A DNA stretch of 64,000 nt from Parahoeflea halophila (lineage in GTDB: Bacteria; Pseudomonadota; Alphaproteobacteria; Rhizobiales; Rhizobiaceae): the NCBI RefSeq assembly GCF_900220985.1, contig NZ_OCPC01000001.1, positions 1,156,836-1,220,835 on the forward strand, written 5' to 3'. Under the pieces are notes generated by a model that was not told where the DNA came from, did not search any database, and saw only the letters and a program-made list of their open reading frames with translations. A program made the translations under genes and the position numbers. Positions 4,319-42,791 of this stretch are shown here, in pieces (position 1 is the first letter of the stretch; each line of letters opens with the position of its first letter).

Positions 4319-6762
4319 GCGCGCAATCTTTCGTTCGCCGGATCCCAGAGCGGTTCGTCGGCCTGCACGCTGGCGGGGTAGCGTTCACCGAATATCTCCA
4401 CGTCAAGCCTCGTCCCGGGTTCGCTCAGATCCGTGCGCAGCATGCCGAGCGCAATGGATTTGCCGATCCGGTGACCCCAGCCACCGGAGGTGGTTTCCCC
4501 GACGACCTCGCCATTGTGCCAGATCGTCGACATGTAAGGCGCGTCGCAGTCACTGGCCTCGACAGTCAGCGTCACGAAGCGCCGCTTGCTGCCCCGTTGT
4601 CTTTCGTTCTCGAGCGCCATCTTGCCGAGGAAACCCGGCTTGTCCCATTTGACAAAGCGGCCAAGGCCACCTTCGAGGATCGTGTAATCGGTCGAGAGAT
4701 CGCCCTTCCACGCCCGGTACCCTTTCTCCAGCCGCAGCGAGTTGAGCGCGAACATTCCAAAGGGTTTGAGGCCGAGCGGCGTACCCGCTTTCATCACCGC
4801 ATCGAAGATCTTCGGCGTGTCCTCGACCTTGGAATGGATTTCCCAGCCAAGCTCGCCGGCAAAGGACACCCGCACCAATTGGCACCAGATTCCGTCAATT
4901 TGTGCCGATTGATGCGTCAGCCATGGTTTGCTTAAATCTGCATCGGTGATGCCCGACAGGATCTCGCGCGATTTCGGGCCGGTCAGAATCTGGCAGGAAA
5001 ACACTTCGGTGACGTCTTCCACCACGATACCCGAACCTTCGGACAGATGCTTCATCAGCCATTCGAAATCATGCCATTGCGCCGTGGCGGCGGTGATCAG
5101 GAAGAAGACATCTTCGTCCAGTGCCATCAGCGACATCTCTGTGACAATCCGGCCTCTGGCATCGGCGAAATAGCCCAGACCGATCCGGCCCGGTCGCGGC
5201 GCCATGCCAGTGATCAGTGTGTTGAGCCAGTCCCGCGCACCCTGCCCTTGAACCTTGAACCGCGAGAACCCCGGAAGATCAAGAATGCCGGCGGCGTCAC
5301 GCACCGCCAGGCATTCCTCCCGCACCGCTTCGAACCAGGAACCCGCGCGCGCCCAGGTTTGGGTTGCCTCTTCGCTTGTGTCATCGCCAGGGCGTGCATA
5401 CCAGTTGGCCCGCTCCCAGCCGTTATAGGCGCCGAACTGGGCACCAAGGGCCGCGATCCGGTCATGCACCGGCGAGAGTTTCTTTTTGCGGCCGGCGGGC
5501 CAGGCGTGGTGCGGGAAATGCATGCCGTATTCATGACCATAGACTTCCATGCCCTTGGCGATCGCGTAATCCTGATCGCAGAAGCCGGTAAAACGCCGCG
5601 GGTCACACGCCCACATGTCCCATTCGGTCTCGCCTTCCATCACCCATTCGGCCAGCACCTTGCCCGCACCGCCGCCCTGACAGATTCCGAAGGTGAAGAC
5701 ACAGGCTTCAAACGCATTCGGCACACCCGGCATCGGCCCGATGAGCGGGTTGCCATCAGGCGTGTAGGGGATCGGACCATTGATGGTCCTGGTCAGCCCC
5801 GCGGTGCCCAGCAGCGGCACCCGCTCGACTGCATCGTTAATGTACCATTCGAGCCGCTCGAGATCATCCGGATAGAGTTGGAACGAGAAGTCCTCCGGCA
5901 TCGGATCGTCGGGCGTGATCCAGTGCGCCTTGCAGTTGCGCTCATAGGGACCGAGGTTGAAGCCGTTCTTTTCCTGCCGCAGATAGTAGGAGCTGTCGAC
6001 GTCACGCAGAAGCGGCAGTTTGCGCCTGTTCTCCTTGCTCCAGGCCTCGACCTCGGGCACCTCGTCAAACAGCATGTATTGATGGCTCATCACCATCATC
6101 GGCATGTCGCGGCCAAACATCTTGCCGACCTCGCGGGCGTAGTAGCCCGCCGCGTTGACAACATATTCGCAGCGGATCTCACCCTTCGGCGTCGAAATCA
6201 CCCATTCGTCGTTTTCGCGGCGAACGCCGGTCGCCGGACAGAAGCGGTAGATCTTCGCTCCTAGATCCCGCGCCCCCTTGGCCAGCGCCTGGGTCAGCTG
6301 TGCCGGATCAATGTCGCCGTCATGGGGGTCATAAAGCGCGCCCGTCAGGTCATGGGTCTCGACGAAGGGATAGCGCGACTTGATCTCGTCGGGCGCCAGG
6401 ATATCGAGATCCATGCCCTGGTAGCGGCCCATGCCGGCCACCCGCTGGAATTCCTGCAAGCGCTCCTTTGAATGCCCCAGCCGGATCGACCCGGTGACAT
6501 GATAATTCATCGGGTAATCAACCGCATCGGCCAACCCTCGATACAGCTCCGCCGAATAGCGCTGCATGTTCATGATCGCCCAGGACGACGAAAAGGTCGG
6601 CACATTGCCCGCCGCGTGCCAGGTGGACCCGGCCGTCAGTTCGTTCTTTTCCAGAAGCACGCCATCGGTCCAGCCGGCCTTGGCCAGATGATAGAGCGCC
6701 GAGACCCCGACCACGCCTCCACCGATGATGACTACCCGCGCATGCCCCGCAATCTCACTCAC
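4315..6762 (-). CDS. FAD-dependent oxidoreductase-GcvT fusion, dimethylglycine/sarcosine dehydrogenase-like (copy 1)
   Basis: This is the first gene of the operon and a diverged paralogue of the next one. It has a GGGVVG FAD motif (residues 14-19), STWHAAG with the probable flavin-linking H49, and C-terminal GcvT domains. An upstream in-frame codon at 6822 would extend it by 20 residues. I chose the GTG at 6762 because AGGAG lies 6 nt before it, because the protein then starts directly before the Rossmann strand, and because the length (815) then equals that of its paralogue. Two such enzymes in one operon suggest consecutive demethylation steps, such as dimethylglycine then sarcosine, or two related substrates. 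A LysR gene diverges upstream. Confidence 0.87.
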   Translation of the reverse strand: MSEIAGHARVVIIGGGVVGVSALYHLAKAGWTDGVLLEKNELTAGSTWHAAGNVPTFSSSWAIMNMQRYSAELYRGLADAVDYPMNYHVTGSIRLGHSKERLQEFQRVAGMGRYQGMDLDILAPDEIKSRYPFVETHDLTGALYDPHDGDIDPAQLTQALAKGARDLGAKIYRFCPATGVRRENDEWVISTPKGEIRCEYVVNAAGYYAREVGKMFGRDMPMMVMSHQYMLFDEVPEVEAWSKENRRKLPLLRDVDSSYYLRQEKNGFNLGPYERNCKAHWITPDDPMPEDFSFQLYPDDLERLEWYINDAVERVPLLGTAGLTRTINGPIPYTPDGNPLIGPMPGVPNAFEACVFTFGICQGGGAGKVLAEWVMEGETEWDMWACDPRRFTGFCDQDYAIAKGMEVYGHEYGMHFPHHAWPAGRKKKLSPVHDRIAALGAQFGAYNGWERANWYARPGDDTSEEATQTWARAGSWFEAVREECLAVRDAAGILDLPGFSRFKVQGQGARDWLNTLITGMAPRPGRIGLGYFADARGRIVTEMSLMALDEDVFFLITAATAQWHDFEWLMKHLSEGSGIVVEDVTEVFSCQILTGPKSREILSGITDADLSKPWLTHQSAQIDGIWCQLVRVSFAGELGWEIHSKVEDTPKIFDAVMKAGTPLGLKPFGMFALNSLRLEKGYRAWKGDLSTDYTILEGGLGRFVKWDKPGFLGKMALENERQRGSKRRFVTLTVEASDCDAPYMSTIWHNGEVVGETTSGGWGHRIGKSIALGMLRTDLSEPGTRLDVEIFGERYPASVQADEPLWDPANERLRA

Positions 6763-7829: not shown

Positions 7830-9383
7830 CTAGTTCTTGAACTTCCGGATTTCTCCTGCCTGAAGCCGGGTGGCGTAGGAGTTCAGTTCCTTCTTCACCA
7901 GCCCCATGAGGAAGTAGAGGCAGAAGATGTTGACCACTGCCATCGCAAAGATCGCCGCATCGGAGAAGTCGATGACCGGCCCGAGGCTGGCTGCCGCACC
8001 GATGACGATGAAGATGCAGAAGATGATCTTGAAGGTAAGCTCGGCATTCTTGCCTTCGCCGAACAGATAGGTCCAGCTCTTCAGCCCGTAATAGGACCAC
8101 GAGATCATCGTCGAGAAGGCAAACAGCACCACTGCGATCGCCAGCACATAGGGGAACCAGCCGATGGCTGAGCCGAAGGCCGCAGACGTCAGGGCAACAC
8201 CGCTGACATCGTTCACGGTGGCAATCGCGGAGCCTGCTTCATTGAGCACATAGAGCCCAGTTGCGGGATCGATAATCAACTGCTGCGAAATCGTGATCAC
8301 CAGGGCAGTCATGGTGCAGATCACGACCGTATCGATGAGCGGCTCGAGCAGCGACACGAAGCCCTCGGTGATCGGTTCCTTGGTTCTCACCGCCGAGTGG
8401 GCAATCGCCGCGGAGCCGACGCCGGCTTCGTTTGAAAATGCGGCCCGCTTGAAGCCCTGGATCAATGCGCCGACAAAGCCGCCGGCAACGCCAAGCCCGG
8501 TGAAGGCGCCGGCGAAGATCTGGCCGAAGGCCCAGCCGATCTTGTCGTAGTTCACAAGCAGGATCACCAGCGCCGTGCCAACATAGAGAACGCCCATGAA
8601 CGGCACCACTTTCTCGGTCACATTGGCGATCGACTTGATGCCGCCGACGATCACCGCATAGACCACCCCGGCAAAGATGATGCCGGTGATCCAGCCCGGA
8701 TAGTCGCCGACGATGCCGGAGATCTGGGCATGTGCCTGATTGGCCTGGAACATATTGCCGCCGCCAAGCGCGCCGAGGATACAGAATATCGAAAACATGA
8801 TCGCCAGGAATTTGCCACCCGGCAGCCCCAGTTCCTTGAATCCCTTTGAGATGTAATACATCGGACCGCCCGAAACCGTGCCGTCCTCATACTCGTTGCG
8901 GTATTTCACCCCGAGTGTACATTCGGTGAATTTCGACGCCATGCCGAGCAGACCGGCAAGGATCATCCAGAATGTCGCGCCCGGCCCGCCAATGCCCACG
9001 GCAACGGCCACACCGGCAATGTTGCCGAGCCCCACTGTTCCCGAGAGCGCGGTTGCAAGTGCCTGGAAATGACTGACTTCACCGGCGTCCTCCGGGTCGG
9101 AATAGTCTCCCTTGACCAGGCCTATGGCATGGCCGAAGAAGCGGAACTGGACGAAGCCGAAATAGATCGTGAAGATGGAGGCCGCGATCACCAGCCACAT
9201 CACGATCCAGGGAAAGCTGGTCCCGGGAATGGGTGCGAAGATAAGGCTGACAAACGGGCCGGTGGTGGCCGCAAAGGCCTCGTTGACCCTCTGGTCGATG
9301 GTCATGGCTTCCTGCGCCGCTGCCATCGTGCCGAAACCAGTCGTCGCAATGGCCGACAGCATCAGTGTTTTGAGAAATCTCAT
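7830..9383 (-). CDS. alanine/glycine:cation symporter (AGCS family)
   Basis: The 517-residue, strongly hydrophobic protein starts with a signal-like segment (MRFLKTLMLSAIATTGF) and then shows about ten membrane spans. The motif ALSGTVGLGNIAGVA followed by GIGGPGATFWM near residues 115-145 is the signature of the sodium:alanine symporter family. Family members take up alanine or glycine with Na+ or H+. It follows the universal stress protein gene after an 11-bp gap, so the two are probably cotranscribed. An Lrp-type regulator lies upstream in the opposite direction. I looked for a glycine riboswitch before the operon and did not see one. Substrate choice between glycine and alanine cannot be decided here. 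Confidence 0.92.
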   Translation of the reverse strand: MRFLKTLMLSAIATTGFGTMAAAQEAMTIDQRVNEAFAATTGPFVSLIFAPIPGTSFPWIVMWLVIAASIFTIYFGFVQFRFFGHAIGLVKGDYSDPEDAGEVSHFQALATALSGTVGLGNIAGVAVAVGIGGPGATFWMILAGLLGMASKFTECTLGVKYRNEYEDGTVSGGPMYYISKGFKELGLPGGKFLAIMFSIFCILGALGGGNMFQANQAHAQISGIVGDYPGWITGIIFAGVVYAVIVGGIKSIANVTEKVVPFMGVLYVGTALVILLVNYDKIGWAFGQIFAGAFTGLGVAGGFVGALIQGFKRAAFSNEAGVGSAAIAHSAVRTKEPITEGFVSLLEPLIDTVVICTMTALVITISQQLIIDPATGLYVLNEAGSAIATVNDVSGVALTSAAFGSAIGWFPYVLAIAVVLFAFSTMISWSYYGLKSWTYLFGEGKNAELTFKIIFCIFIVIGAAASLGPVIDFSDAAIFAMAVVNIFCLYFLMGLVKKELNSYATRLQAGEIRKFKN

Positions 9384-25833: not shown

Positions 25834-26190
25834 TCAGACTGCGCGGTTTGTTCGATGGCCGGCGTCCCGCACTTCAAGTGCGGCTGCCTTGTCATACTCG
25901 GCCTGCGCTTCCTCGAGCGCCAGTTCGGCCGCATCAAGCTGCACTTTCAACTCCTTGATCGAAGTTTGCAGATTGTCAGACCGCTGGCGCGCAGCCTTGG
26001 CGAAGGTGGGATAGGCAAAATGGGAGGGGTCGGTGTTACCGGCCTTTTTCTCCTCGGCAGTGATCTGATACTCCAGCTCCGCTGCCATCTTCTCCATTTC
26101 CGCCATCATCAGCTGGATCTGTCCGAGCTGACGGGTTTTCTCGTTGACCTGAAACTGTTTCAGGCGAACATGGCTTTCACGCGACTTCAT
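25834..26190 (-). CDS. fliJ: FliJ-like flagellar export chaperone
   Basis: The 118-residue protein is nearly all helical and charged, with heptad-like stretches (VRLKQFQVNEKTRQLGQIQL, then MMAEMEKMAAELEYQI, and a second coil near residues 75-108). This matches the two-helix coiled coil of FliJ, the flagellar type III export protein that links the FliI ATPase to the gate. Alphaproteobacterial fliJ often lies next to ctrA, which supports the call over a generic coiled coil. The ATG at 26190 is preceded by GGGAG. It diverges from ctrA; no other flagellar gene is in the window. Confidence 0.75.
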   Translation of the reverse strand: MKSRESHVRLKQFQVNEKTRQLGQIQLMMAEMEKMAAELEYQITAEEKKAGNTDPSHFAYPTFAKAARQRSDNLQTSIKELKVQLDAAELALEEAQAEYDKAAALEVRDAGHRTNRAV

Positions 26191-26302
26191 ACGCAATACT
26201 CCCGTGATGCGAGACCCCGGTTAATGAAATTCGTTACACTGGCAACCCTGCCAGTCCCGTTTTGCGATTCATGACCGCGACGTTAACTTTTGGCACATCG
26301 TG

Positions 26303-26317
26303 GTAACCATTCGTTTA
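26303..26317. promoter_or_regulatory. degenerate CtrA-like box in ctrA promoter region
   Basis: GTAA-CCATTCG-TTTA keeps the TAACCAT core and the 11-bp spacing of CtrA half-sites but has two mismatches. Autoregulation of ctrA is known in Caulobacter; here it is only suggested. Confidence 0.35.
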
Positions 26318-26394
26318 CGGGCATCGTTAATACTACCCCTCATGGTTTAAGGCGGGGTAAACGGAAAACATGATTTTTTCTGTCCGTCTTTCCG

Positions 26395-26423
26395 GAGTCC
26401 TTTGAATCACTTGGCGTCGATTC
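26395..26423. promoter_or_regulatory. cluster of three GANTC (CcrM) methylation sites upstream of ctrA
   Basis: GAGTC (26395-26399), GAATC (26404-26408) and GATTC (26419-26423) fall within 29 bp; a fourth, GATTC, is at 26266-26270. GANTC is the target of the cell-cycle methyltransferase CcrM, and ctrA transcription in Caulobacter responds to its hemimethylation. Confidence 0.7.
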
Positions 26424-26441
26424 TTGATGTGAAACATCAAG
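26423..26441. promoter_or_regulatory. perfect 8-3-8 inverted repeat in ctrA promoter region
   Basis: CTTGATGT-GAA-ACATCAAG is a perfect palindrome that shares its first base with the last GANTC site. It looks like an operator for a dimeric regulator, which I cannot name. Confidence 0.5.
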
Positions 26442-26628
26442 ATAGTCAGGCGATTTTTTTGGAACAATTTCAAGAGTATGCCAGTGATAATTAACATTCG
26501 GATAGTGGTTGCATAACCTGATCAGAATTTGTTAACCATTTCGTGGCAGCCTCCAAATCAGGCAACGACTGGATCCGTATCGCGTAAGTGGATCTCAAAA
26601 CCTTGCGGCGGCGGAAAAGGGGATAAAT

Positions 26629-27330
26629 ATGCGGGTACTACTGATCGAGGACGACAGCGCGACAGCTCAGAGCATCGAATTGATGCTGAAGTCTGAAAGC
26701 TTCAACGTGTACACCACGGACCTGGGCGAGGAGGGCGTCGATCTCGGCAAACTCTACGACTACGACATAATATTGCTGGATCTCAACCTGCCGGACATGT
26801 CCGGTTATGAGGTTCTTCGAACGCTCAGGCTTTCCAAAGTCAAGACACCAATCCTGATTCTGTCCGGTATGGCTGGAATCGAAGACAAGGTACGCGGTCT
26901 CGGATTTGGCGCTGACGACTACATGACCAAGCCGTTCCACAAGGACGAACTGGTCGCACGCATTCATGCGATCGTACGCCGGTCCAAGGGTCATGCCCAA
27001 TCGGTCATCACCACCGGCGACCTGGTCGTCAACCTCGATGCCAAGACTGTCGAAGTCGGCTCGCAGCGGGTTCATCTGACTGGCAAGGAATACCAGATGC
27101 TGGAGCTGCTGTCGCTCCGCAAGGGGACGACCCTGACCAAGGAAATGTTCCTCAACCATCTTTACGGCGGCATGGACGAACCGGAACTGAAGATCATTGA
27201 CGTCTTCATCTGCAAGCTTCGCAAGAAACTCGCGACATCGGCCGGCGGAAAGAATTATATCGAGACTGTTTGGGGCCGCGGTTATGTGCTGCGCGAGCCG
27301 GACGAAAACGAGATCCTCGAAAGCGCTTGA
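26629..27330 (+). CDS. ctrA: cell-cycle response regulator CtrA
   Basis: CtrA is the OmpR-type master regulator of division, motility and envelope genes in alphaproteobacteria. The 233-residue protein has a receiver with acidic EDD (residues 8-10), phospho-acceptor D51 and K101. Its winged-helix domain includes [20 protein letters not shown], then [20 protein letters not shown] and LRKKL, all nearly invariant in CtrA. The C-terminus (EILESA) resembles the ClpXP degradation tag seen in the family. chpT, its phosphotransferase, and sciP, its inhibitor, are close by. Confidence 0.98.
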
Positions 27331-27368
27331 TTTTGCAAGCCCGCTGTCAGGCAGGCAACTCCTGATAC

Positions 27369-38063: not shown

Positions 38064-38942
38064 TTGATCATCCGCGCCTACCTGTTTCTGGTCATCACCG
38101 CCCTGTCCTGGGGCGACAATGCCGTGGCGGGCAAGATGGCCGTCGGCCACATTTCGCCGATGCTGCTGACTTCGCTGCGCTGGGCCATCGCCCTGACCAT
38201 CCTCATCAGCTTCACCCTGCCACAGCTGCGCCGCGACAGGGAAGTGATCCGCGCCAACCTGCCGCTGCTGATGGCCTATGGAGCGATCGGCTTCACCTTC
38301 TTCAACAATCTGCTCTACTCGGCGCTGCAATACACAACCGCGATCAATGTCGCCATCGAGCAGGCGGGCATGCCGATGGTGATCTTTCTGGCCAATTTCA
38401 TCCTGTTCCGCATCAAGGTGACGTCGGCGCAGATCGTGGGCTTTCTGCTCACGTTGTCAGGCGTGGCGATCACCGCCTCGGGCGGCAGCCTCGACCGGCT
38501 GATCGGGCTCGAGCTCAACCGCGGCGACGCGCTGATGCTGCTCGCAGTCCTCTGCTATGGCGGCTACACCGTGGCGCTGCGCTACAAGCCGCAGCTGCAC
38601 TGGCAATCGATGATCACCGTGATGGCAGCCTCCGCCTTCCTTACTTCGCTGCCCTTTTCAGCCTTCGAGGTGGCGCGCGAGACCGTGATCTGGCCCGACA
38701 CCACCGGCTGGCTGGTCGCTGCCTTCACCGCCATCTTCCCCGCGCTCGTCGCGCAGGTGCTGTTCATCAAGGGCAACGAGATCATCGGCTCCAACCGCGC
38801 CGGCATCTTCATCAACCTGGTCCCGATCTTCGGCACCCTGCTCAGCGTGATGATTTTGGGCGAGATGCTGCATCTCTATCATGTCGTGGCGCTCGGCTTG
38901 GTGCTGGGCGGGATATGGCTGTCGGAGCGGGGGAAGGGATAG
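38064..38942 (+). CDS. EamA/DMT-superfamily permease
   Basis: The 292-residue protein has about ten membrane spans in two EamA repeats (first about 5-135: LFLVITALSWGDNAVAGKMA, VAIEQAGMPMVIFLANFILF; second about 150-285: LLAVLCYGGYTVALRYKP, GSNRAGIFINLVPIFGTLLS). EamA proteins export metabolites such as amino acids; substrate unknown. No ATG is at the start. A TTG at 38064 fits best because a stop lies in frame at 38007. It ends just before the AT-rich islet. Confidence 0.85.
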   Translation: MIIRAYLFLVITALSWGDNAVAGKMAVGHISPMLLTSLRWAIALTILISFTLPQLRRDREVIRANLPLLMAYGAIGFTFFNNLLYSALQYTTAINVAIEQAGMPMVIFLANFILFRIKVTSAQIVGFLLTLSGVAITASGGSLDRLIGLELNRGDALMLLAVLCYGGYTVALRYKPQLHWQSMITVMAASAFLTSLPFSAFEVARETVIWPDTTGWLVAAFTAIFPALVAQVLFIKGNEIIGSNRAGIFINLVPIFGTLLSVMILGEMLHLYHVVALGLVLGGIWLSERGKG

Positions 38943-38986
38943 GTATTTAGTATATATAAATTGAGCTCAAAACGAACCGACAAATC

Positions 38987-39898
38987 TCAGAGTGCACGAT
39001 ATAATACATTTACCGACAGAAGGTAAAATGTCTGAACAGTAGGAATTGATAGAATTATTAACCCAAAAATATAAAATATAAGTGTCAGCATTCGAGCCGA
39101 AAAACGACTATACTCATCAGTTTGATATTTTATATATGCAATATCTCTCGAAAAATTAGGAGCCTGCCCGTAAAATGGTACTGTATAGACCCAGTTTATC
39201 CTTACCTCATTAGCCATGGCTATCCCATATTTTGTAAAATCATAATATCCTGCACCATTCATAACTTCCATAAAATCGGGTATGTCTTCATACTCCACCT
39301 CAGCGCTGCCATCAGGCGTCGCACCTACTTCAGCGCTTTCATCGCTCTCTGCAATATCAGCCGATTCGGCGGCATTGTATAACTCCTCAAGGAGACCGTT
39401 CATTTCTCCAATCAAAGTATCTGGATATGAATAGTTTGCTCGATAATCCTCTCTATCAAAATCATATTCGTGCGCTTTTGCAAATGCCTGCACTACATAT
39501 CTCAGATGTGATTTTGCAAGATTTTTCGAATCTCCAATTGGTGTCGATGAAACGTATTCAAGCTGGTTAGGTTGCGTTTGAATATCGCTTGGACACGCAA
39601 GGGAGAATATTATCGAACCAAAACCAAGAGAGCATAAGCCAAAATATGTAAAATATAATGTATTAAGAGAAAATTGATTTCCATTTAATTGACCAATATC
39701 TTCCAGAAAATATGGCGCTAATGAAAATATTTTGGATGTATTATCATTGAAAATAAGAACGACGCCTAGCAATGGAATTATTGCAGTCAACCGCATTGGC
39801 GCCGAACGCCCAACCCTTGAGAGAGTTGACCAAGTGATCACCTCAGAGAATTTCGTAATTTGATTTCGCCAAAACCAACCTCGAAACAAATTTTCCAC
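38987..39898 (-). CDS. uncharacterised membrane protein of the AT-rich islet
   Basis: The 303-residue protein has two spans near the N-terminus (LTAIIPLLGVVLIF, about 37-50; LYFTYFGLCSLGFGSIIFSL, about 81-100). A soluble, acidic middle (about 105-260, with ESADIAESDESAEVG) and one long C-terminal hydrophobic stretch (MLTLIFYIFGLIILSIPTVQ, about 270-290) follow. I do not recognise the family. The best start is a GTG at 39898 with AAAGG adjacent; the same frame is open about 20 codons further upstream without a normal start, so the N-terminus is uncertain. It diverges from the HEPN-like gene and may be its partner. Confidence 0.65.
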   Translation of the reverse strand: MENLFRGWFWRNQITKFSEVITWSTLSRVGRSAPMRLTAIIPLLGVVLIFNDNTSKIFSLAPYFLEDIGQLNGNQFSLNTLYFTYFGLCSLGFGSIIFSLACPSDIQTQPNQLEYVSSTPIGDSKNLAKSHLRYVVQAFAKAHEYDFDREDYRANYSYPDTLIGEMNGLLEELYNAAESADIAESDESAEVGATPDGSAEVEYEDIPDFMEVMNGAGYYDFTKYGIAMANEVRINWVYTVPFYGQAPNFSRDIAYIKYQTDEYSRFSARMLTLIFYIFGLIILSIPTVQTFYLLSVNVLYRAL

Positions 39899-39988
39899 CT
39901 TTGAAAGGGCGTATAAAATTTTCCAAAGTAATGTACGATATCTCCGATTTTCCCAATTGTCTGCCTAGGATCCTCGAAATGTATGACC

Positions 39989-40011
39989 AACATCTCTAGC
40001 TTTGAGATGTT
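39989..40011. promoter_or_regulatory. inverted repeat between the two islet genes
   Basis: AACATCTC-N7-GAGATGTT is a perfect 8-bp inverted repeat, 50 bp before the plus-strand ATG and 90 bp before the minus-strand start. It may be an operator for shared control. Confidence 0.45.
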
Positions 40012-40061
40012 TGTTGTGAACAATCCCGATACAGGATGACCTGTGTGCGGAGGAATTAATA

Positions 40062-41006
40062 ATGCGGCGTACTTCCTATCAACAGATAATTGAACAGCGC
40101 CTGCGTCGGGGTGATCACCATCGCCTCGGGATGGAACTTGTTTCTCAAATCACTGCACTTCGTGCAGATGCCGTTTCGGTTTCAACCCTAAGGTCATCAT
40201 TCTTTGAATTCATTCCTATTCGGTATGTGACTACGTTAGAGGTGTTTATTCGCGGAATCGTCTCAGAGTTAGTAGATAGTAGTGAGGCTTATTTTGAGCG
40301 AGGCGAAAAGCTAACAAAAGGCGCCAAAGTTGACCTCACCTTCGCAGCGCACGTGGATCGGCATGAACTCACCTTAGGTGATTTTGTTGCGCATTCAATT
40401 TCTTTGAATAGCATCGAAGCAGTTCTAAACGTGCTCGAAACTCTGGTTGTCGATTTTTCCGAAAAGCTTAAGCTAGCACACCCAAGATGGCTAGAGGAAC
40501 GGGAACGCTGGCCACTCCCTCCGATTATCAAAAACTATAACAATGTGATAGGCTCGCTCTCTAAGCTCTATAGTGTCCGCCACATTTTGACACATGAACT
40601 TCCATCATTGCCCGTCTTCGATCCGTCCGAAATTGATAGTCTTACTGAGGCTGTACTATGTTTTATTGAGGCAACAGACTGGGTGGTTGTCGAGTCACTG
40701 CATGGTGCCATTCCGAAGACGCAAATATCGATGAACATTGGGGCCAGAGATGTTCTGATTGAAGAAGAGACAAAGCTTGCGGAAGCGCTAATTGAAGTCA
40801 CAGCTTTGGAGGGCATCGACAAGGAGAACTTGCGTGCGCTGCAAGCTCGTTGGACGGAATGGGCTGATGCACAGACGAATCTCGTAGCCTCGCAATTTCA
40901 TGGAGGCTCAATGTATGCAATGATTTGGGCTTCCGAAAAAGCTGAGTTGACACGGGAGCGTACTGCCCAGCTAGTGCGCTTGAAAAGCGAATGGATGGAC
41001 GCTTGA
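40062..41006 (+). CDS. HEPN-like / LprI-like (DUF1311) two-domain protein, function unknown
   Basis: The 314-residue protein has no signal peptide. The N-terminal two thirds is helical (FEFIPIRYVTTLEVFIRGIV, residues 48-67, and following helices) and contains R173-HILT-H178. That R-x4-H fits the HEPN ribonuclease motif, in a VRHILTHELP setting typical of HEPN helices. Residues about 258-311 (ARWTEWADAQTNLVASQFHG, GS, then LTRERTAQLVRLKSEW) resemble the LprI/DUF1311 pattern but lack its cysteines. GGAGGA lies 7 nt before the ATG. HEPN proteins often act as toxins or defence nucleases; LprI domains are usually periplasmic. Joining both in a cytoplasmic protein is unusual. Domain calls rest on motif reading only. 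Confidence 0.7.
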   Translation: MRRTSYQQIIEQRLRRGDHHRLGMELVSQITALRADAVSVSTLRSSFFEFIPIRYVTTLEVFIRGIVSELVDSSEAYFERGEKLTKGAKVDLTFAAHVDRHELTLGDFVAHSISLNSIEAVLNVLETLVVDFSEKLKLAHPRWLEERERWPLPPIIKNYNNVIGSLSKLYSVRHILTHELPSLPVFDPSEIDSLTEAVLCFIEATDWVVVESLHGAIPKTQISMNIGARDVLIEEETKLAEALIEVTALEGIDKENLRALQARWTEWADAQTNLVASQFHGGSMYAMIWASEKAELTRERTAQLVRLKSEWMDA

Positions 41007-41109
41007 AATTACGCTTACGGTTTTGTTTCTACAGAACCATGGCTAACCGCCCCCCAATGCCCTCAGGCTCCGGGAGGCGGCGCATCGTTCAGGCACCGGT
41101 GCTCAACCC

Positions 41110-42705
41110 TCAGTCCACGTTGAACACCAGCGGCTTGGCCTGTTTGATGGCCTCGTGCGAGGTGAGCTTTGTAAGCACGTTCTGGCTGACCAGATCGTCG
41201 ACGTAGAGCAGCGCGATGGCGTCGCCGCTTTGCTTGTCGCGGCCGAGCTGGAAGTTGGCGATGTTGACGCCGGCATCGCCCAGCGTCGAGCCCATGAAGC
41301 CGATCATGCCCGGCACGTCGGTGTTGGCGATGTAGATCATGTGCTGGCCGACTTCGGCATCCATGTTGATGCCCTTGATCTGGATGAAGCGCGGCTTGCC
41401 GTCGGAGAACACGGTGCCCGCGACCGAGCGGGTCTGCCGCTCGGTGGTCACCGACAGCTTGATGTAGCCGTCATAGACGCCCGACTTGTCGCGCTTGACC
41501 TCGGACAGGATGATGCCCTTTTCCTTGATCATGATCGGCGCCGAAACCATGTTGACGTCGGCCACCTGGTTGCGGATCAGGCCGGCCAGCAGCGCGGATG
41601 TCAGCGCCTTGGTGTTCATGCCCGCGGTCACCCCGTCATAGAGGATCTCGATCTCCTTGATCGGGCTTTCGGTGACCTGGCCGGCAAAGGAGCCGAGCAC
41701 GTCGGCCAGCCGGATGAAGGGTTTGAGGATCGGCGCTTCTTCCGCCGTGATCGAGGGCATGTTGATGGCGTTTGAGACCGCGCCCTTGATCAGGTAATCC
41801 GACATCTGCTCGGCCACCTGCAGCGCCACGTTTTCCTGCGCTTCGGTGGTCGAGGCGCCCAGGTGCGGGGTGCAGACGACGTTCTCGAGGCCGAACAGCG
41901 GGCTCTCGGTGGCGGGTTCGGTCTCGAACACGTCGAAGCCGGCGCCGGCGACATGGCCCGACTTGATGGCTTCCGCAAGGGCTGCCTCGTCGACCAGGCC
42001 GCCACGGGCGCAGTTGATGATGCGGACACCCTTCTTGGTCTTGGCCAGCGCCTCGGCGTTCAAAATCCCGCGGGTCTTGTCGGTCATCGGCACATGCAGG
42101 GTGATGAAATCGGCGCGCGCCAGGAGCTCGTCGAGCTCGAGTTTGGTCACGCCCATTTCCTCGGCCCGCTCCTTGGACAGGAACGGATCATAGGCGGCCA
42201 CATGCATGCCGAGCCCGATCGCCTTCTTGCAGACGATGCCGCCGATATTGCCGGCACCGATGACGCCGAGCGTCTTGCCGGTGATCTCGACGCCCATGAA
42301 CTTCGATTTCTCCCACTTGCCGGCCTGGGTCGAGGCGTCGGCTGCGGGCAGTTGACGGGCGACGGCGAACATCAGCGCGATCGCGTGTTCGGCGGTGGTG
42401 ATCGAGTTGCCGAAGGGCGTGTTCATGACGATGATGCCGCGGCGCGAGGCGGCCGGAATGTCGACATTGTCGACGCCGATGCCGGCGCGGCCGATCACCT
42501 TGAGATTGTCGGCAGCCGCAATCAGCTTCTCGGTCGCCTTGGTGGCCGAGCGGATCGCCAGGCCGTCATACTGGCCGATGATTTCGAGCAGCTTTTCCTT
42601 GTCCTTGCCGAGCTTCGGCATGAAATCCACTTCAACGCCGCGATCGCGGAAGATCTGGACGGCGGTTTCCGACAGGGCGTCGGATACGAGTACGCGAGGT
42701 GCCAT
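41110..42705 (-). CDS. serA: D-3-phosphoglycerate dehydrogenase
   Basis: SerA oxidises 3-phosphoglycerate, the first step of serine synthesis. The 531-residue protein is the long form. It has a substrate domain, an NAD domain with GAGNIG at residues 150-155, catalytic R234 (NCARGGLVDE), E263 and H281 (TPHLGAS), an intervening domain, and a C-terminal ACT domain (about 455-531, HMIYIANTDVPGMIGFMG) for regulation. The ATG at 42705 has GGAGG 5 nt upstream. It follows serC by 86 bp on the same strand. Confidence 0.97.
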   Translation of the reverse strand: MAPRVLVSDALSETAVQIFRDRGVEVDFMPKLGKDKEKLLEIIGQYDGLAIRSATKATEKLIAAADNLKVIGRAGIGVDNVDIPAASRRGIIVMNTPFGNSITTAEHAIALMFAVARQLPAADASTQAGKWEKSKFMGVEITGKTLGVIGAGNIGGIVCKKAIGLGMHVAAYDPFLSKERAEEMGVTKLELDELLARADFITLHVPMTDKTRGILNAEALAKTKKGVRIINCARGGLVDEAALAEAIKSGHVAGAGFDVFETEPATESPLFGLENVVCTPHLGASTTEAQENVALQVAEQMSDYLIKGAVSNAINMPSITAEEAPILKPFIRLADVLGSFAGQVTESPIKEIEILYDGVTAGMNTKALTSALLAGLIRNQVADVNMVSAPIMIKEKGIILSEVKRDKSGVYDGYIKLSVTTERQTRSVAGTVFSDGKPRFIQIKGINMDAEVGQHMIYIANTDVPGMIGFMGSTLGDAGVNIANFQLGRDKQSGDAIALLYVDDLVSQNVLTKLTSHEAIKQAKPLVFNVD

Positions 42706-42791
42706 GATGGCCTCCATTGCTTAGGTCAGATTATGGGGAATGGGCATGTGGGCCGCACCGGAGGGGATCCGGTGCAGCCATCGGCCTGGTC

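Follow-up and report, generated by a model that had tools for sequence, protein, structure and literature searches.

The window analyzed here, a 64-kb stretch of the Parahoeflea halophila genome, contains a small AT-rich islet that appears to be accessory cargo inserted between two convergent core genes. We put at roughly 0.55 the probability that this islet consists of a Tha-like, single-gene abortive-infection HEPN RNase lying beside a separately acquired membrane-effector-like gene, in a spacer that tolerates insertions. The single-gene defense reading is favored because few residues in the N-terminal part of the protein are invariant and both HEPN motifs belong to them, some relatives of the gene have viral and restriction neighbors, some copies are split, the same junction holds defense cargo in congeners, and Tha provides a precedent. 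As proposed, the HEPN-LprI RNase would stay inactive as long as no infection signal has reached the LprI-like domain at its C terminus or the dimer; the activated protein is predicted to cut RNA through R173/H178, leading to cell arrest, and the membrane gene would be a separate acquisition and not an obligate partner. The sequences themselves show the insertion, the lack of full-length relatives in congeners, the variable junction, the motifs, and the gene neighborhoods; what is inferred is that the protein acts as an RNase, that phage provides the trigger, and that the LprI part does the sensing, together with any action of the membrane protein.

The insert spans 38943 to 41044 (2102 bp) and has a GC content of 0.425 compared to about 0.61 elsewhere in the 64-kb window. 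It is flanked on the left by a gene for an EamA-family transporter (38064 to 38942, plus strand; Pfam E value of 4.3e-37) and on the right by serA (41110 to 42717, minus strand; identified with Pfam and also present in congeners). Sliding 2-kb profiles bore out the sharp change of composition reported from the first reading: GC content drops immediately 3' of the EamA stop codon (38942) and recovers at ~41045, before serA, with a lowest 2-kb value of 0.426, whereas stretches beyond the islet have a mean of 0.611, a standard deviation of 0.022, and a minimum of 0.5355. Both islet genes are also far from their neighbors purA, EamA, serA, and serC in codon use, with GC3 values of 0.30 for the membrane gene and 0.46 for the HEPN gene compared to 0.83 to 0.89, and codon index values of 0.20 and 0.26 compared to 0.66 to 0.78, the latter range being flattered because these four genes are themselves the reference for the index. 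Only two genes are recognized in the islet, at 38987 to 39898 on the minus strand and 40062 to 41006 on the plus strand, and the remaining ORFs are short or overlap these two. Their divergent layout, 163 bp apart and with a perfect inverted repeat between them, was described correctly at the outset, as were the proteins under their labels of HEPN, LprI, and membrane protein.

Comparison of the EamA-serA junction in close relatives supports the proposal in the original prediction that the islet was gained by transfer: none of 17 congeners (of which the genomes of G007 and G008 are 77% and 75% complete) has a full-length relative of the membrane gene or the HEPN gene, and the junction differs in both length and cargo. 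EamA and serA are on a single contig in 13 congeners. The interval measures 54 bp in G017 and 1.6 kb in G003, nine congeners have 3.2 to 5.4 kb, and the longest intervals are those of G009 (11.1 kb, with ends set from BLAST matches) and G015 (49.6 kb). The two genes lie on separate contigs in G004 and G012, serA alone was properly found in G005, and neither was properly found in G008. Among 201 relatives' genomes, the HEPN-LprI query matched 12, namely, the window genome and 11 others from residue 178 onward only. The membrane query matched four, the window genome, G003, G112, and G117; the relative in the congener G003 (29% over residues 9 to 127, far from serA) is a distant family member, and the weak G112 match, which the profile did not recover, was left out of the counts. 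The EamA-serA space is a tolerated, variable hotspot for accessory cargo, and since the two genes are convergent, insertion between them breaks no promoter.

On the right side, a 65-bp serA terminator flank (41045 to 41109, minus strand) is retained beside the insert; it is common to nine congeners and forms a hairpin of -29.4 kcal/mol (z = -2.64). The position of the right insert edge varies by no more than a few bases between the window and nine congeners, three of which have it inside a displaced remnant; in seven other congeners, similarity has already ended by the serA stop codon or close to it. A fixed att site for site-specific integration was considered and rejected, since the shared right edge is the serA terminator, whose functional conservation explains the agreement. 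Displaced serA 3' fragments occur inside the hotspot in G013, G011, and G009, and two EamA 3' fragments occur in G009 as well. The fragments in G011 and G013 and the EamA fragments in G009 resemble the copies of other species more closely than they resemble the resident gene. These displaced pieces suggest that cargo may have been replaced repeatedly, one load stacked on another, by recombination in the flanking genes. Their positions are 5653 to 6583 and 9436 to 9660 in L086 (G009), 5086 to 5401 in L077 (G013), and 5061 to 5196 in L080 (G011).

Several congeners carry defense genes at this junction. Our cargo scan covered 54 longer ORFs from 14 congeners, some of them surely spurious, and omitted G015 (49.6 kb), G017 (empty), G008 (junction unreadable), and shorter ORFs; 20 of the 54 were scanned singly against PADLOC, and the pooled family tables hold the best 25 of 28, 25 of 41, and 25 of 30 families. 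PADLOC matches include ThsB of Thoeris at the G011 junction (E value of 2.1e-82), PD-Lambda-4_A in G005 (2.6e-82), an RdrB-like protein in G012 (5.9e-24), and an N-terminal HNH/SAVED_HNH match in G006 (1.7e-19). The pooled scan added DarG (1.9e-114) and DarT (5.9e-34), assigned to G013 by eye, and PDC-M50B (5.9e-54), whose congener was not assigned. Defense cargo that could be placed is strong in 4 of the 14 congeners and weaker in 2 of them, and the families listed also include non-defense cargo such as LysR, MFS, GST, FecCD, GGDEF, and similar. A mad3 (MADS-like) match in G016 was judged false, the protein being by eye an ABC importer ATPase adjoining a FecCD-like gene. We use the term defense hotspot as a description of this congener cargo and not as a statement of enrichment over a matched control locus. 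Two further cassettes were seen at these junctions. In G001 (L079, 1844 to 4398), a P-loop protein with a weak PDC-S01 match (E value of 1.7e-4) adjoins a protein with an RHGIVH motif, HEPN-like by eye only, and the two are perhaps an unrelated HEPN system; as a candidate relative of the window HEPN protein, the RHGIVH protein was discarded, showing no significant similarity. In G004 (L094, 1752 to 5012), a four-ORF cassette includes HARE-HTH, AIRS-like, and cytidylyltransferase-like families, which came from the pooled scan and were assigned by eye; two of the encoded proteins were run one by one against PADLOC, and neither had a match.

The plus-strand islet gene (40062 to 41006) encodes a protein of 314 aa that, according to its ORF, Pfam, hydropathy, and the nine-row alignment A3, combines HEPN motifs with a C-terminal LprI-like domain and has no strongly hydrophobic segment. 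The LprI-like domain (PF07007) covers residues 220 to 304 (40719 to 40973, plus strand), with a Pfam E value of 7.4e-10 and 39.6 bits against a cutoff of 22. Ahead of it lie E60-x3-R64 (40239 to 40253, plus strand), which fits the HEPN Ex3[KR] acidic motif and has the E in 9/9 and the R in 8/9 rows of A3, and R173-H-I-L-T-H178-E179 (40578 to 40598, plus strand), which fits the HEPN Rx4-6H RNase motif and has R173, H174, I175, H178, and E179 in 9/9 rows. Up to position 179, the only other invariant residues besides these and E60 are M1, R15, and G106. As outlined in PMC3710099, HEPN RNases have the signatures Ex3[KR] and Rx4-6H, the R of the latter being followed by N, D, or, commonly, H. Because both signatures are conserved in A3, the window protein is most likely a HEPN protein on the basis of its motifs. 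Counting against this assignment, the Pfam scan of the protein found LprI alone and no HEPN domain, and the HEPN models PF18735 and PF18737 had no match in the window genome (G000). A profile comparison (hhalign) with six of the nine matches to these two models was not significant (E value of 0.23), although the sole aligned block placed RHILTHE on R-N-x3-H.

The LprI part sets the protein apart from what is described for its namesakes. It shares a C-terminal LprI domain with LprI/DUF1311 proteins (PF07007) such as ScwA. According to the account of ScwA in PMC7933661, however, ScwA is periplasmic and LprI proteins have conserved cysteines, whereas by hydropathy the window protein has no leader or membrane span (no 19-residue stretch reaches a hydropathy of >=1.6), and its single cysteine, at residue 200, lies outside the LprI part, with none in residues 220 to 304. 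Lysozyme inhibition was rejected as its role, given the missing leader and LprI cysteines and the account in PMC7933661 of ScwA as having no lysozyme role.

Full-length relatives of the HEPN-LprI protein were found at 12 loci in 11 records, with a patchy distribution. The Paracoccus plasmid pBM152 has two copies, L023 (broken) and L132 (intact), in duplicated segments with many identical neighbors (BLAST), so that 11 loci are independent. The plasmid search matched seven records, four of them over >80% of the query; the whole-genome search gave full-length relatives in G481, G415, and G577 of 385 genomes; and the GTDB genome contig scan gave only one relative (L097), so co-occurrence counts remain small. 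Three of the 12 relatives are on IMG/VR viral contigs (L098, L099, and L100). No relative was found among 50,697 phage records, and viral scans confirmed nothing with the HEPN protein alone and returned only themselves with L100 and L098. Matches to the LprI part alone were excluded throughout; these were 11 of the 12 genomes matched among the relatives, G336, and 28 of 30 in another search, in which G000 and G481 alone reached the HEPN part.

The surroundings of these genes are mixed. By eye, the viral contigs carry a tyrosine integrase (L098), phage structural genes (L099), and phage genes with a resolvase-like gene (L100). Elsewhere there are nearby McrBC genes (L025; PF10117, Pfam E value of 1.1e-15), an annotated type I restriction-modification system with DUF4062 (L026), annotated RnlA/RnlB (L132), and a DUF6575-like gene below the cutoff (L097). 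Ordinary core genes, as judged by eye, surround L033 and L035, which counts against a defense role. In an all-against-all BLAST of neighbors within 4 kb at the 12 loci, a recombinase family was common to L024, L026, and L100, and two-component genes (L024 and L034) and LysR genes (L025 and L097) were incidental common neighbors; with the L023/L132 duplication set aside, no conserved adjacent antitoxin, as expected of HEPN-MNT or a similar toxin-antitoxin system, was found across the 12 loci among ORFs in that range. Frameshifts or stops interrupt the gene at three of the 12 loci (L023, L033, and L034), and these splits could be sequencing errors. At two loci (L024, 6868 to 8810, and L034, 2942 to 5332), the HEPN-LprI gene lies directly 3' of a trypsin-like protease gene, called from Trypsin_2 at an E value of 3e-4, below the Pfam cutoff, in L024 and by eye in L034. 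A recurrent trypsin-HEPN pair was rejected, since the two protease ORFs have no mutual BLAST match at 1e-3.

The closest precedent is Tha of Staphylococcus aureus prophages. In the description given in PMC11087260, Tha is a single-gene system of 301 aa with a C-terminal HEPN domain bearing R-x4-H and no discernible N-terminal domain, a nonspecific RNase that is switched on by phage tail proteins and has an overlapping antisense inhibitor gene, Ith. Compared by this description, the window protein resembles Tha in being encoded by a single gene, in its length of ~300 aa (314 versus 301), in its R-x4-H, and in the mobility of some of its relatives. The order of parts differs: the HEPN domain of Tha is C-terminal, whereas the window motifs lie at residues 60 to 64 and 173 to 178 with the LprI-like domain after them. 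The window HEPN gene contains two predicted antisense ORFs, one of 80 aa and one of 84 aa. DS-11 of DefensePredictor, as presented in PMC13092281, is a one-protein CBS-HEPN system with the same logic and another sensor. The HEPN superfamily RNases, as defined in the main text of Anantharaman et al. 2013 (PMC3710099), have Ex3[KR] and Rx4-6H in common with the window protein, which unlike those families has no match to a Pfam HEPN model; the words "DUF1311" and "lysozyme" are absent from that main text. A word search of open-license PMC papers did not find HEPN together with LprI or with DUF1311.

The minus-strand gene (38987 to 39898), read from its ORF, hydropathy, and relatives, starts with GTG, in a context that looks weaker by eye than the RBS-like GGAGGA (40049 to 40054, plus strand, read by eye) ahead of the ATG of the HEPN gene at 40062, and encodes a 303-aa membrane protein with N-terminal spans, one C-terminal span, and a soluble insert. 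Two spans are clear from hydropathy, and a third at residues ~80 to 103 is assigned from relatives. The protein has no match up to an E value of 0.1 in Pfam, NCBIfam, PADLOC, or PHROGs, and viral scans with it and with its longest relative confirmed nothing. Relatives occur at nine loci, on three plasmids and in G003, G117, G353, G914, G679, and G689, the last four coming from a search of 398 genomes with five matches, one of them the window genome itself. In an alignment (A5) of the window protein with eight of the nine relatives, L028 being omitted because it was read as two ORFs, identity to the window protein is 16 to 26%, and W23, P42, G45, G87, P103, G279, L283, and P286 are invariant.

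Two of these loci link the family to ABC-3C. In G003, the membrane gene adjoins genes for an AAA_23/SMC-like ATPase, MC5, and CTD9 (Pfam E values of 5.6e-9, 6.4e-34, and 4.3e-34, respectively), the ATPase being read as two overlapping ORFs, and G353 has the same order, with the three proteins 77%, 65%, and 82% identical to those of G003 (BLAST). These ABC-3C operons, each with a three-span membrane gene as an additional member, lie at 7925 to 11355 of L030 (G003) and 3363 to 7004 of L106 (G353); ABC-3C is grouped with Lamassu in PMC10586767. Since their CTD9 proteins are short (160 to 176 aa), the membrane protein is a candidate effector of the operons. On a Vibrio plasmid, the relative is the last gene of a codirected run near restriction-modification genes. 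The islet protein might itself, then, be a stand-alone or orphaned defense effector from ABC-3C (Lamassu-type) or similar multigene systems. The place of its relatives beside ABC-3C genes and at the end of the Vibrio run would fit this, and against it stand the 16 to 26% identity, a three-span topology assigned in part from relatives, the putative nature of any activity, and the remaining seven of nine loci, which have no neighbor in common with G003/G353 or one another within 4 kb (BLAST); we regard this origin as somewhat unlikely. The window islet itself has none of the ATPase, CTD, and MC genes that mark ABC-3C/Lamassu as outlined in PMC10586767. That the two islet genes are a single unit, a toxin with a membrane regulator or effector (HEPN-TM-like or toxin-antitoxin) controlled from the inverted repeat of the shared spacer, we consider improbable. 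The layout invites it: the divergent genes share a 163-bp intergenic region (39899 to 40061, from the ORF limits) with the inverted repeat AACATCTC-7-GAGATGTT at 39989 to 40011 (perfect 8-nt arms; 11 nt at 91%). On the plus-strand RNA, G-U pairs extend the repeat to 14 pairs (z = -4.97, for a stretch chosen for its repeat), so that, by repeat and folding, 39986 to 40014 could be an operator or, for the HEPN gene, a hairpin in the 5' leader. Both PMC11087260 and PMC12948488 name a HEPN-TM system, which is PICI encoded in the latter; compared by name alone, which implies a HEPN and a membrane part, it would resemble the islet, but the relatives examined do not keep the two window genes together. 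The original prediction had proposed that the pair may be one functional unit, and this was not supported by the count of side-by-side homologues: the membrane family occurs at 0/12 HEPN-LprI loci and HEPN-LprI at 0/9 membrane loci (profile search, E value up to 0.01), an outcome named beforehand as speaking against it, in flanks that are mostly <=8 kb and at two viral loci end at the gene, so that a few links could be missed. Because the families do not co-occur at these 12 and 9 loci, the single unit was not kept, and the differing GC3 (0.30 versus 0.46) also argues against it. At L108, the longest membrane relative (314 aa, with a window-like long insert) is followed by an ORF with RHRFAH, which would favor a unit, but an RHRFAH-type motif arises in 12.5% of shuffles of the encoded protein and this ORF has no Pfam match and no relative at the other loci.

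The two genes may instead be ordinary accessory genes without a defense role: a permissive spacer would by chance have retained a membrane protein gene and a gene for a HEPN-like RNase of the stress response. Metabolic genes are also found in the hotspot and neither islet protein is matched in PADLOC, as this would lead one to expect, but the patchy distribution, the viral-contig and restriction neighborhoods, the broken copies, and the AT-rich, recent gain speak against it, and we judge it unlikely. The defense-type character first suspected for the islet is supported by the HEPN motifs, the defense cargo at congener junctions, and the presence of a membrane relative in ABC-3C operons. A bolder form of the Tha-like single-gene reading, which we think quite unlikely, would make HEPN-LprI an undescribed single-gene abortive-infection family, in which a cytoplasmic LprI-type domain, a type known from cell wall biology, activates the HEPN RNase on sensing a late phage protein (e.g., a muralytic endolysin), and would make the three-span family a portable membrane effector that other systems share with ABC-3C/Lamassu operons.

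Since HEPN effectors as a group are familiar, HEPN-LprI is at most a new variant among them. It is nevertheless a candidate defense gene family that PADLOC misses, and the EamA-serA space offers a chromosomal hotspot in which unknown genes can be screened by location. A further lead is the membrane family that accompanies ABC-3C operons encoding a short CTD protein. Elsewhere in the window, a second, milder GC dip (0.50) at 26000 to 27331 lies upstream of a response regulator gene, the product of which we take to resemble CtrA, and is perhaps a promoter region.
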